Below, one piece after another: positions 24,231 through 29,301 of a DNA stretch of 64,000 bases. The stretch lies in assembly GCA_025057905.1 (NCBI GenBank), contig JANWUX010000003.1, positions 1-64,000 of the forward strand, given 5' to 3'. This DNA is from Patescibacteria group bacterium (GTDB lineage: Bacteria; Patescibacteriota; Microgenomatia; UBA1406; GWC2-37-13). Numbering within the stretch: position 1 is the first letter of the stretch; the number at the start of each line of letters is the position of its first letter. The notes under the pieces were generated by a model. That model saw only the letters and a program-made list of their open reading frames with translations. It searched no databases and was not told the DNA's origin. The position numbers and the translations under genes were made by a program.

Positions 24231-24259
24231 TTGAAAATTCCCTTAATTTGTGATACAAT
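24231..24259 (+). promoter_or_regulatory. Sigma70-type promoter
   Basis: TTGAAA (24231-24236) N17 TACAAT (24254-24259). Confidence 0.7.
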
Positions 24260-24278
24260 GAAAGTATAAAAAAAAAGT

Positions 24279-24332
24279 ATGAAAAAAAGGGTTTTATTTA
24301 TCATCATCCTCCATTTTCTCCTCCTTTTCTAG
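24279..24332 (+). other. Putative leader peptide ORF MKKRVLFIIILHFLLLF*
   Basis: 17-codon ORF right after the promoter, rich in Ile/Leu/Phe, lying across hairpin strand 1. Confidence 0.55.
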
Positions 24333-24409
24333 AGGATGGGAGGATGTGTGATTAAATAAAACCAAAGTTAAAATTTAAAACCATCCTCCAAAAAAGGGAG
24401 GTTTTTTTT
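24290..24409 (+). promoter_or_regulatory. Attenuator-like leader with alternative hairpins
   Basis: Strand 1 GGTTTTATTTA..CATCCTCC (24290-24312), strand 2 GGAGGATG..TAAATAAAACC (24339-24363), strand 3 CCATCCTCC (24381-24389), strand 4 GGGAGG + T8 (24396-24409). Confidence 0.75.
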
Positions 24410-24411
24410 AT

Positions 24412-26484
24412 ATGGAACAAGAAAGATGTGTATACGGTAAAAAAGGACCTGAATACGAAACTAGATTACTTAAAATAGAGGTTGTAGGAACACATTCAGC
24501 GATTGAATCACTAATAGGCAAAGGCCAAGCTCTGAGCTATTTCAATCAAACGAATTTATTCAAAAAAGACGGAATACCCCAATATTATTTAATCTTTAAT
24601 CCTAATCCATCATCCCCAGACGAATTAAGTGAAGATCAACTCTCGCTTTTACAAAAGAAAATTGGTCCTGATTTTTTTCGTCTAAGAGCTGTTTCGGGTT
24701 CATTATTGCAAAAAAATTCATTTCCTCTTGCGGTTGGCGGATCGTGTGCCATTGAAACTTGGGGAGTGCGTTTAATTAACGCTCTGGGAAAAGGAAATGA
24801 TGAAACCAAAGCTTCTCTTGCAGAATTTCTTCTTTCGCTAGCGCCAACAATGACCCACGCAACAGGTGCAATTTTACCAGCAGGAGAACTTGGTGTTCAT
24901 CTGATAGAAGATGCTCTATGGGGACAGAGGATTGAAGACACATATGGTGTCGAAAAAGGAAGAAAAAAAACAGAAGAAGCTTACGAAAGGATACACCGTG
25001 TAGCTGCAAGAAGATGCCAACTTGCAACAGGAAATCCTTATTATCGATTAATCCCAATAAAATTTGAAGAGTTGGATTTGTTAGAACACTTAAAAGAATG
25101 GTTTAAGCAAATGGGTATTGATTTTGATCCGCAGTTTGGAATAGCTCAAGTAATTTATACCTATGTGGGCCCTAATTTGTTGACATTACTAAAAAAAGCC
25201 TTGAGAAAAAGTGGTCTTCCAAACTATGAAATAGATCCATTTAACATGGCATGCAGGCTAAAGCAAATAGATCATAACGACTGGGATGCAACAATGGCAG
25301 AATTAAAAGGAATTATCCTAGGAGAGACACCAAATGATAAACAGAAGTCATTACTTGAAAAATATCCTTTTAGAGCAGGATTAACCATAGCTAAGTGGGT
25401 GAGAGAAAATTATGAAAAAAATCCTAGTCAACCAAGCGGTTTTTTTGATTTCCCATATGATGGAAAAATTCTCCACATGGCTGGCTTCCACGTGCCAACC
25501 AATGATCCAGGAGAAATAGCGAACAAAATTTTATCGATAAAAAATGACCCAAGATTATTAAGATTTGGAAACTTAGACCAGCATCTAGATTATCTAGATG
25601 GTTACTTAAAAGAAGAATTTAACCTCGAAAGAGGGTTATTAAATGAGAAAAGAGAAGCAAGTCAGCAATTACAAAAATTACAAAGCTCAAAACAATCATT
25701 AGAAGCAAAGATCCAAAATTATAAAAAAATTCTGGAGATGTATGGTAAAGTGCTTGAATTATTAAATCTACCAGATGATAAAGCGTTAGACCAAGAAGAA
25801 AAAGAAAAATTCAGACCTTCAGTACAATATCTGACTGAAAGATATAACAGCTTCTTCAACTCTCTAATAAAGAGATATCCTTCTAACATCGAGACACCTT
25901 TCTCTTTTGATTCATTATCTCAAAATGACAGAGAAGATTTACACAGATGGCGAAATTTATTTTTATTTCTCAGGAAAATAGGTTTTGAAGAATTGGGTGA
26001 AAAATTAAAAGAATTAAATCAAATATTTGACAAAAAATCAAAAGACAATGAAGAAAGAGATATACAAAAAAACGAAGAAGATTGGAAAGAATTTTTCATT
26101 AATAAAGTTTCAAACGAAATAAGAGCTATTGAAGAGGATTTAGAAAACAAAAAAAACCAGCTATCATCCTTAATGAGCCAGCTAAAATCTTTAGATAAAA
26201 AAAGCAATTCTCTTGATAATTATCCACCTCCATCAATTTTCCCTCTAGAAAGAAATTTAATTATCATGCACGCCACACAGTTTGTCTTCGATCCTGATTT
26301 TCGAGCGTTTCTTAGATATGTCGCAAATGTAAAAAACTCAGATAAAGATCAAATGACTAAAAAAGCAGAAATAAGAGAAGCATGCAAGAAGATTTTTCCT
26401 AAATTAAAAGCCTACCTTGTTTATATTTTTGCAGGTGGAGATTATCCATATTTAAGAAACATGAGAATTTTTGATTTATCATAA
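24412..26484 (+). CDS. Uncharacterised 690-aa protein with coiled-coil
   Basis: Intact ORF; no family recognised; SD GGGAGG 10 nt upstream; central/C-terminal coiled coil. Confidence 0.85.
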   Translation: MEQERCVYGKKGPEYETRLLKIEVVGTHSAIESLIGKGQALSYFNQTNLFKKDGIPQYYLIFNPNPSSPDELSEDQLSLLQKKIGPDFFRLRAVSGSLLQKNSFPLAVGGSCAIETWGVRLINALGKGNDETKASLAEFLLSLAPTMTHATGAILPAGELGVHLIEDALWGQRIEDTYGVEKGRKKTEEAYERIHRVAARRCQLATGNPYYRLIPIKFEELDLLEHLKEWFKQMGIDFDPQFGIAQVIYTYVGPNLLTLLKKALRKSGLPNYEIDPFNMACRLKQIDHNDWDATMAELKGIILGETPNDKQKSLLEKYPFRAGLTIAKWVRENYEKNPSQPSGFFDFPYDGKILHMAGFHVPTNDPGEIANKILSIKNDPRLLRFGNLDQHLDYLDGYLKEEFNLERGLLNEKREASQQLQKLQSSKQSLEAKIQNYKKILEMYGKVLELLNLPDDKALDQEEKEKFRPSVQYLTERYNSFFNSLIKRYPSNIETPFSFDSLSQNDREDLHRWRNLFLFLRKIGFEELGEKLKELNQIFDKKSKDNEERDIQKNEEDWKEFFINKVSNEIRAIEEDLENKKNQLSSLMSQLKSLDKKSNSLDNYPPPSIFPLERNLIIMHATQFVFDPDFRAFLRYVANVKNSDKDQMTKKAEIREACKKIFPKLKAYLVYIFAGGDYPYLRNMRIFDLS

Positions 26485-26562: not shown

Positions 26563-27492
26563 ATGGTTGTAAGAGAAATTTTAGAAATATTCGAAATTAT
26601 TAGTAAACCAGAAATTGACATTAAGACTCTGAAAGAAATCTTTGAAAAATATGATACAGAAGTAGAATTTGTTCGTGTTGATGAAAGTAAAAAAACAAAA
26701 CCACCAATTGGTGGAGGAAAAACTATTTTCATAAAGATAAAAATTAACAGTAGTGATAAAAATTTTCCCAAAATAGGAATAATCGGCCAACTGGGTGGAA
26801 TTGGCGCTAGACCAGCTGAAATAGGTTTTGTCTCAGATGGAGATGGGGCCCTATCTGCTTTAGCTTGTGCCTTAAAGTTAGCAAAGATGAAGTATTATGG
26901 CGAGAGGATTAGAGGTCGATATGTAATCTCTACCCATCTTTGCCCAAATGCCCCAACATTTCCTAAGAAGCCAGTTTCATTCATGGGAAGTCCGGTATCA
27001 CTAGAAACAATGAATAAACTCAATGTGGAAAAAGATATGGAAGCTATAATCACAATTGATACAACCAGAGGTAACCGAATAATAAAAAACAATTACTTTG
27101 CCATCACACCAATAGTTAAAGAAGGATGGATACTTAAAATTCCAGACGAAGTCATTGACGTTTTCGAGTGGATTACGGGCGAAAATGTTTCAGTCGTGCC
27201 AATTACAATGCAAGACATTACTCCTTACACCAACAATCTTCCTCACATAAACAGCATTCTCCAGCCTGCCATTGCTACCTCTGCTCCCGTTCTGGGAGTT
27301 GCCATAACTTCAAAAAAAGTTATTCCGGGTTCAGCAACAGGAGTGACTAATTTATTTCAAATCGACACTGTCTGTAGATTCATCATTGAAATTTCAAAAA
27401 GATTCTGTAGTAAACAACTCTATTTTTACAACAAAGAAGAATTTTTAAAATTAAAATCATTATATGGCTCAATGACAAAGCTATATAAATAA
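26563..27492 (+). CDS. DUF1177-family protein
   Basis: IGIIGQLGGIGARPAEIGFVSDGDGALSALACALKLAKM, PVSFMGSPVSLETMN. Confidence 0.7.
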   Translation: MVVREILEIFEIISKPEIDIKTLKEIFEKYDTEVEFVRVDESKKTKPPIGGGKTIFIKIKINSSDKNFPKIGIIGQLGGIGARPAEIGFVSDGDGALSALACALKLAKMKYYGERIRGRYVISTHLCPNAPTFPKKPVSFMGSPVSLETMNKLNVEKDMEAIITIDTTRGNRIIKNNYFAITPIVKEGWILKIPDEVIDVFEWITGENVSVVPITMQDITPYTNNLPHINSILQPAIATSAPVLGVAITSKKVIPGSATGVTNLFQIDTVCRFIIEISKRFCSKQLYFYNKEEFLKLKSLYGSMTKLYK

Positions 27493-27499
27493 AAAACTA

Positions 27500-29290
27500 A
27501 TCTTATCGAAGATTGAGTAATTTGAAGATCAAAATTTAGATCACGACTAAATGTTCAGATTTACAAAAGTATTTATTTTTTCGTTTCAGCTTAAAAATTT
27601 AGATTTTCATTAATCAATACACCTTTTTTCTTGATTCATTAAGGTAGGATTCAAATCTCATAACTCCCTTTGTTAAAAAAAATCTCCACAAGTTAAGACA
27701 TTTATCAGACCCAGAAGCAAAGCTGCATAAAATAAGTCATGACAGCTCTCTGATCCCTTCATAAGTAAAGTAAAAATCTTTTAAAATCAAAAAAAAGGTC
27801 GTTCTCCCCATTAAAATTAGGGATAAACCTATTAGCAATGTTAAAAAATAACTGCTGTTGTTTTGAAAAATGATTATCACCTAGGTGGAAACGCATCGCC
27901 TGTTTACCTTATATAAACCTTCTCATAAAGAAATTTAAAAAATCTCAAACTATTCTCTTTCTTCTGAAAGGTTAAATGAGAAAGAACAAAACAGGTAATC
28001 GCTCAAGACTCTCTCTAGATATTTCTGAAATCTCAAGAAAGAATTGAATAATTAAGTCTTTTTTTCACGAAAATCTTTAGTGATATAGGTACAATTCGGC
28101 ATTGACTATAAAAACTGGAAATTGATAAAAGAACAAGTGATTCAGCCGGAATTTCTGTTAATAAACCTGAAAAAAGATTAATTAAGAACAGACAAAAGCA
28201 ACTCATGGATATTTTGACAGAAAATTCGCTCATATTATCAATATTGCGAAAAAGCATTAAAATATTGAGCTTTTTAAAATCGCTTTAAGAAAACTACTTT
28301 ATTATTACTAAATTCAGTAGCAGCCATGATAGGAAAGAAATTAGTTGATGAGTTTTTTTAACAACTCTCAAAATTTAGAGTCACCTATAAACATATAGAA
28401 CTTATAATCAATGATTAGTTTTATTCAATCAATGAGCTTCGTAATTTAGATAATTTAAGAAAACATAGTATGACGATATAAGTACCAATTAACTGATTGA
28501 TTGTAACTTTTGATATCTTTAAAAATGATTAAGTAACTTTTGCAAAATTACTCAAACTTTTTTAAAGACAACATTACTGGCCAAACTTCAACCTTGAACA
28601 TCAATTATTCATATTTTTAGCTAGGTTATTATTGATCAATCTTAAGAAATAAATAGCAAAAAGATGTCCAGAATATTTTAGCTACAATCCAAAATTATGG
28701 TATGGATAGAATAATTACTATCGAATAATCAACAGATTAATTCACAAAATGATTAGAATGCAAAATTTAACAGAGGTTAATAGGAAGATTATTCTGTCTT
28801 ACCATTAATTCCTGATGATGTTGCTAGAAACTGATTCTTGCAATCATTGATGATAGTTGCTCTTAAAGCCTTCACTATTTAGTTATCTCCTTAAGAATAC
28901 GGGGAAGATTATTTTTAAAATTTTTTCTTTAGAAATCAAGAAAATTGCGTCATAAAACCTTAAAGTTTCTTTTACAACCTTCAAGAAGATAAAATTCTGG
29001 TTTTCGAAGTAGGTATTATTTATAGAATTGATGAAAAAAATTATGAATTTTTACAACATCAAGCAATGATGTCAAAAAAACGTTTTTGGAAATCTTCTCA
29101 GAGAACAATCTAATTTTTCAGAAAAATTTCTATCGTTAAAACACTTAAATCTCTCCTCCCGTAATGGTGGGGGTAATTAGAAGAGATTTTAAGCGAAAAT
29201 AAACACTACCAGAATATGCTAAAAATATTATCTCTTCAAACAGCATCCTGAACCAAATTCATTAAAAATCCAGAAATATTTATTAGAATA
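27500..29290. other. ~1.8 kb region lacking credible intact ORFs
   Basis: AT-rich; frequent stops in all frames; only spurious short ORFs in the track. Confidence 0.5.
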
Positions 29291-29301
29291 TAATTAAAAA
29301 C

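Follow-up and report, generated by a model that had tools for sequence, protein, structure and literature searches.

A probable leader-peptide attenuator ahead of an undescribed 690-amino-acid protein, one of a predicted lineage-wide set in Roizmanbacteria

Background

The attenuators of Escherichia coli and Salmonella (trp, his, leu, ilvGMEDA, thr and pheST), as treated in theory (PMC1183508), share a short open reading frame (ORF) with runs of regulatory codons, RNA strands that can pair as 1:2, 2:3 and 3:4, and a terminator with a T-run, and are predicted to show super-attenuation when there is no translation. In this study we analysed a leader of similar layout that lies ahead of a gene for a 690-amino-acid (aa) protein in a 64,000-nucleotide (nt) stretch of DNA from an uncultured Patescibacteria group bacterium, a Roizmanbacterium (assembly GCA_025057905.1, contig JANWUX010000003.1, positions 1 to 64,000 of the forward strand), referred to here as the window. 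We put the probability at roughly 0.88 that this leader is a ribosome-mediated transcription attenuator of the amino-acid type, and that it belongs to a lineage-wide set in Roizmanbacteria. The mechanism itself is the classical one, and the novelty lies in the lineage and in the families of target genes. Unlike the attenuators of E. coli and Salmonella, the window leader has an apparently near-leaderless mini-ORF, mixed hydrophobic codons, an uncharacterised target and no match to an Rfam leader at threshold.

Leader peptides with terminators have also been predicted by comparative genomics in Actinobacteria, ahead of ilvB, trp, leuS and trpS (Seliverstov et al. 2005, PMC1262725), and premature terminators and attenuators have been surveyed genome-wide by Naville and Gautheret (2010, PMC2965389). 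In comparison with the actinobacterial attenuators, the set described here comes from another phylum and stands ahead of genes for ThrRS, HisRS, SerA/SerB, DAHP synthase, LeuA, CysK/M, HutH, S-adenosylmethionine (SAM) hydrolase and unknown families, in some cases as tandem copies. The trpL attenuator of Sinorhizobium meliloti, in which the leader ORF begins at the 5' end of the RNA (PMC7298713), provides a precedent for a leaderless leader ORF, although it is Trp-specific and comes from a proteobacterium. T-box riboswitches likewise sense whether tRNA is charged and regulate genes of amino-acid metabolism and for tRNA synthetases, but they have no leader ORF. Patescibacteria are described as having small genomes and as being short of amino-acid biosynthesis (PMC7143001). 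We found no description of attenuators in this phylum in the open-access literature, a search that did not cover subscription journals or preprints.

Results

The promoter, the 17-codon ORF, strands 1 to 4, the T8 and the ATG of the 690-aa gene all lie where a first-pass annotation of the DNA had placed them (Table 1). The leader ORF overlaps strand 1 and its stop codon falls 9 nt 5' of strand 2, the core of which reads as duplicated, with a second, overlapping copy (GAGGATGG) immediately ahead of GGAGGATG. The intrinsic terminator with its T-run (24376-24409), ahead of the first gene, forms a bulged stem of 10 pairs, AAAACC.UCCU/GGGAGGUUUU, followed by T8. Strands 2, 3 and 4 with a T-run are found in combination at one place only in the window, and 60 dinucleotide shuffles of it gave no instance.

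Table 1. Features of the leader and the genes that follow it
Feature	Position	Strand	Basis
Sigma-70-type promoter: TTGAAA 24231-24236, N17, TACAAT 24254-24259, TG ahead of the -10 box	24231..24259	+	sequence
Leader ORF, 17 codons, MKKRVLFIIILHFLLLF*, control codons V5-F17	24279..24332	+	sequence
Strand 1, within the leader ORF; partner strand 2	24290..24312	+	folding
Strand 2; partner strand 1 (protector) or strand 3 (antiterminator)	24339..24363	+	folding, ribosome masking
Strand 3, core CCATCCTCC 24381-24389; partner strand 2 or strand 4	24376..24389	+	folding, ribosome masking
Strand 4 GGGAGG 24396-24401 and T8 24402-24409; intrinsic terminator	24396..24409	+	sequence, folding
690-aa protein, undescribed family; weak HUP/cyclodipeptide-synthase-like fold lead for N-terminal core	24412..26484	+	no Pfam/NCBIfam family
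DUF1177 protein, probably second gene of the controlled operon	26563..27492	+	PF06675 E 4.7e-108

Folding agreed with the alternative pairings that had been proposed in that annotation. The leader has a minimum free energy of -43.2 kcal/mol, against -26.2 +/- 3.6 kcal/mol in dinucleotide shuffles (z -4.67; none of 200 shuffles was as good), and the 1:2, 2:3 and 3:4 pairings are mutually exclusive. Pairing of strands 1 and 2 is worth about -35 kcal/mol as a duplex, whereas the 2:3 antiterminator (24339-24391) and the 3:4 terminator, each folded alone, reach -17.1 and -8.7 to -9.0 kcal/mol, respectively, and this is the order of stability that the attenuation mechanism requires. The behaviour of the switch was modelled by masking the RNA under a ribosome codon by codon and computing the pairing of the remainder, which is an equilibrium treatment without co-transcriptional kinetics. 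Without a ribosome the terminator has a probability of 0.92, and it is also dominant when the ribosome occupies the first codons. At any ribosome position from V5 through L16 the probability of the antiterminator is 0.87-1.00 and that of the terminator about zero, and with the ribosome on the stop codon the terminator is back at 0.94. This result holds at assumed footprints of 11-16 nt, the edges shifting at 9 and 18 nt, and when the footprint is set to 11-12 nt, counted from the A-site codon, the stall window comes out as exactly VLFIIILHFLLLF.

Rfam, searched at gathering and at relaxed thresholds, returned no leader family, the best matches being Phe_leader (22 bits against a threshold of 55) and Thr_leader (20 against 55). 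A T-box riboswitch was considered and rejected, as the window gave no Rfam T-box match at the gathering threshold and 15 related loci gave no T-box match either.

Homologues of the 690-aa protein are found in 15 of the 83 genomes of the order, those that are named being mostly Candidatus Roizmanbacteria. Their identity is about 26-29%, and most of them fall within 19-34% when compared with the window protein; a protein scan of the genome contigs with the single sequence detected no relatives, and it was an alignment used as query that recovered them. DUF1177 is co-encoded in seven of the 15 genomes and the leader is present in exactly those seven, namely the window genome, G022, G030, G041 and G046, together with G032 and G047, which have two tandem leaders each. 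The homologue gene spans two contigs in G041; in G030 about 540 nt separate it from the leader upstream. No leader was seen upstream of the homologues in the eight genomes without DUF1177 (G031, G059-G064 and G070). As read from the folds, the outer 1:2 helix stays paired through double changes, with G-C, G-C, U-A, U-A, U-A in the window and A-U, G-C, C-G, C-G, U-A in G041. Because strand 2 was misplaced in the MAFFT alignment of the leaders, pairing was tested by comparing cognate with swapped duplexes and not by column covariation. Across the whole class of leaders the own 1:2 duplex has -19.4 kcal/mol against -13.9 kcal/mol for swapped partners, and 37% of leaders are in the best 5%.

Beyond the leader itself, a DNA search of its own genome gave low-complexity matches only, and an exact search for strand 2 in viral contigs found no match. 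Leaders much like that of the window do stand ahead of methyltransferase-type and unknown genes in other genomes of the collection (L153 in G018, L193 and L194 in G030, and L112 in G052). The leader sequence thus seems to have moved between genes.

A search of the 83 genomes with two patterns, GGCGG...CCGCC..GGCGG-N-T4 and GGAGG...CCTCC..GGAGG-N-T4, gave matches in 46 and 40 genomes, respectively, while the same patterns read backwards gave 0 matches. After removal of duplicates 125 sites were left, 120 of them with a leader ORF; at the related sites a leader ORF is present in 119 of 124 cases, compared with 47 expected from shuffled upstream DNA. The order is predicted, from sequence, to carry at least 100 amino-acid leader-peptide switches. 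Outside the order such matches are far less frequent: 58 of 380 genomes in the phylum have one, and a few control matches turned up as well.

The codon runs of these leaders correspond to the genes that they precede. Downstream proteins were clustered by BLAST, and only cluster representatives were named through NCBIfam and Pfam, the rest being assigned by clustering. Codon-matched targets include ThrRS (10), a SerB/SerA fusion (8), DAHP synthase (7), BCAT (5), LeuA (3) and HutH (3), with smaller groups for threonine synthase, HisRS (2), CysK/M (2), TrpB (1), TrpE (2) and SAM hydroxide adenosyltransferase (2). The runs are of Thr for ThrRS, Ser for SerA/SerB, Phe/Tyr for DAHP synthase, Ile/Leu/Val for BCAT, Leu for LeuA, Cys for CysK/M and Trp for TrpB and TrpE. 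Permutation p-values, which are uncorrected for relatedness, range from 5e-5 to 0.014 for the ThrRS, SerB/SerA, DAHP synthase, BCAT and LeuA matches and from 5e-5 to 0.008 for the CysK, Trp and SAM hydrolase groups, with 0.049 for HisRS. In most leaders the stall window predicted by folding ends on cognate codons. These make up 141 of 258 among the last six predicted stall codons, compared with 70 of 613 elsewhere, and this enrichment persists at every footprint tried; the fit is poorer for the His and Trp groups.

Several further leaders deserve mention in their own right. Tandem attenuators with the same codon specificity, that is two ORF/terminator units per gene, are seen at L088, L098, L112, L138 and L212, and at L034 and L035. 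Met-rich leaders (L094 and L156, both MMM, and L187 outside the order) precede DUF62-type genes for SAM hydroxide adenosyltransferase, which one would not have expected a Met-type attenuator to control. His-containing leaders have Asp/Glu-racemase-like genes or histidine ammonia-lyase (HutH) downstream (L067, L157, L207, L189; L080, L097, L101), and HutH as an attenuator target would be catabolic. YYYY leaders at L123 and L211 precede a family of about 354 aa without a Pfam match, and at L143 and L204 a phosphoserine phosphatase-phosphoglycerate dehydrogenase fusion follows a leader of the NNYSPSSSS type. Outside the order, WW leaders occur ahead of TrpB in the same class of bacteria, and in other classes of the phylum (L171-L174, L176 and L178) there is a recurrent leader-like ORF of the M.NE.LSLYKTGGL.N type with a GGCGG terminator and no clear coding gene downstream.

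Discussion

It is suggested here that RNA polymerase would start a few bases 5' of a 17-codon ORF with many codons for Leu, Ile and Phe. When the ORF is read through to its stop, the ribosome would cover the start of strand 2, strands 3 and 4 would pair and transcription would terminate at the T8; with no translation at all 1:2 would form, and the terminator would form as well. A ribosome stalled on the Val/Leu/Phe/Ile/Leu/His/Phe/Leu codons when charged tRNA is short would instead cover strand 1, so that 2:3 could pair and polymerase would read through into the 690-aa gene and DUF1177, the two probably being co-transcribed. An amino-acid attenuator had been put forward in the first-pass annotation, and it is now strongly supported by the conserved leader ORF and pairing and by the class-wide matches between codons and genes. 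Both a conserved leader ORF and compensatory changes, on which that annotation had staked its proposal, are present in relatives.

A number of observations weigh against this conclusion. The window's own genome has only this one site under both patterns, and its ThrRS gene sits after a tRNA, without a leader. The equilibrium model gives no clean switch for G022 or for the second leaders of G047 and G032, and the permutation p-values take no account of relatedness. Taken alone, the excess of Ile/Leu/Phe codons in the 690-aa leaders over other leaders is not significant (p 0.09, n=3), and a pyrimidine-rich strand 1 favours hydrophobic codons regardless. Finally, near-identical hydrophobic leaders head unrelated genes (a methyltransferase at L153, from the same genus, and an unknown gene at L193), and the leader alone therefore does not name the pathway.

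With respect to the signal, the stall windows predicted for the 690-aa leaders mix Leu, Ile, Phe and Val and usually include Phe, whereas the BCAT leaders have Ile/Leu/Val, mostly without Phe among the last six codons. Our best guess is that the window leader probably responds to a shortage of Leu, Ile or Phe, and perhaps Val. It could be argued that it is instead a general sensor of slowed translation, such as a ribosome-targeting antibiotic or cold might cause, with the hydrophobic codons a by-product of the pyrimidine-rich strand 1, since a stall at nearly any codon from V5 onward yields the antiterminator and hydrophobic leaders head varied unknown genes. We regard this as distinctly unlikely, as related leaders have, in place of this run, codons for Thr, Ser, Cys, Trp or Phe/Tyr that match the downstream gene, which indicates that codon identity matters in the class, and no resistance-type gene follows the window leader.

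How the mini-ORF is translated bears on a second alternative. The first-pass annotation had noted that the ORF lacks a clear Shine-Dalgarno (SD) sequence and had counted this as a weak point. The absence is real, but it is no weakness, because SD-like motifs across 119 leaders number 4 against 3.5 expected from shuffles. Most leaders of the class have a -10 box close upstream, as the window leader does, and in the same 119 leaders a good -10 box precedes the ATG by a median of 10 nt. The window leader is among the longer ones in this respect, its 5' untranslated region being predicted at about 13 nt. The short distance, together with SD motifs no commoner than in shuffles, makes it probable that the leader mini-ORFs are translated from near-leaderless RNA. 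The same annotation had also likened the locus to erm-type translational attenuation, in which 3:4 pairing would hide the SD of the 690-aa gene and stalling would expose it, termination being secondary, and GGGAGG does lie 10 nt ahead of ATG 24412. This part of its proposal was not sustained and we consider it very unlikely: several homologues have GGCGG(G) as strand 4, which makes a poor SD, the class shows widely differing spacings between terminator and start codon, and T8 follows strand 4 in the window, as T-runs do at all class sites, where they were demanded by the search pattern. SD-like motifs are moreover found in just 3 of 32 window genes, so that strand 4 is an improbable control point as the SD of the 690-aa gene. 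That the hairpin is a plain terminator or insulator between two genes, without regulation, is barely credible, for although intrinsic terminators are expected between genes and a 5-pair terminator-like site arises at about chance frequency in the leader region, this would leave the promoter upstream of the terminator, the set of four strands that can pair with each other, the ORF lying across the first of them, the conservation of the leader and the codon/gene matching without explanation.

The target of the proposed attenuator matches no family in Pfam or NCBIfam. AlphaFold models of the 690-aa protein are of medium quality (predicted local distance difference test, pLDDT, 71 for the full-length model and 68 for the other), and the full-length model compared with the PDB gave coiled-coil noise only. 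When the N-terminal core was compared with the PDB by Foldseek, many of the top 50 matches were cyclodipeptide synthases, along with other HUP-fold enzymes, at weak E values of 0.2-3 overall and 0.3-3 for the cyclodipeptide synthases, and a HUP/cyclodipeptide-synthase-like fold for this core is offered as a lead only. That the protein is itself a cyclodipeptide synthase was rejected, with no PF16715 match at the gene in any genome and an hhalign probability of 0.05%. Separately, a same-genus genome (G002) encodes a 201-aa protein above the PF16715 cyclodipeptide synthase cut-off (L230, 1339-1944, minus strand).

In relatives the operon continues after DUF1177 with a P-loop gene of about 350 aa and then peptidases, the latter named by eye. 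The P-loop gene was looked for in the window and not found. At the place where relatives carry it, the window has 1.8 kb without a long ORF (27493-29301), bounded by DUF1177 on one side and a gene for an M20 peptidase on the other, and possibly decayed. The operon as a whole may supply or handle hydrophobic amino acids. A more far-reaching picture, which we hold to be unlikely, is that in this order a genome-scale layer of near-leaderless attenuators, some of them in tandem, is combined with a 690-aa HUP-type enzyme of a new family acting on aminoacyl-tRNAs or on the same hydrophobic amino acids. If this were true, the window leader would read the substrate pool of its own HUP-type (cyclodipeptide-synthase/class I tRNA-synthetase-like) enzyme.

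Conclusions

The approximately 120 predicted leader-peptide switches offer a way to read the amino acid to which an unknown gene answers, comparable to the specifier codon of a T-box, and leader codons could help to annotate many orphan families. To judge from their sequences, the leaders also suggest that leader peptides may be readable without Shine-Dalgarno sequences in Patescibacteria of this order.
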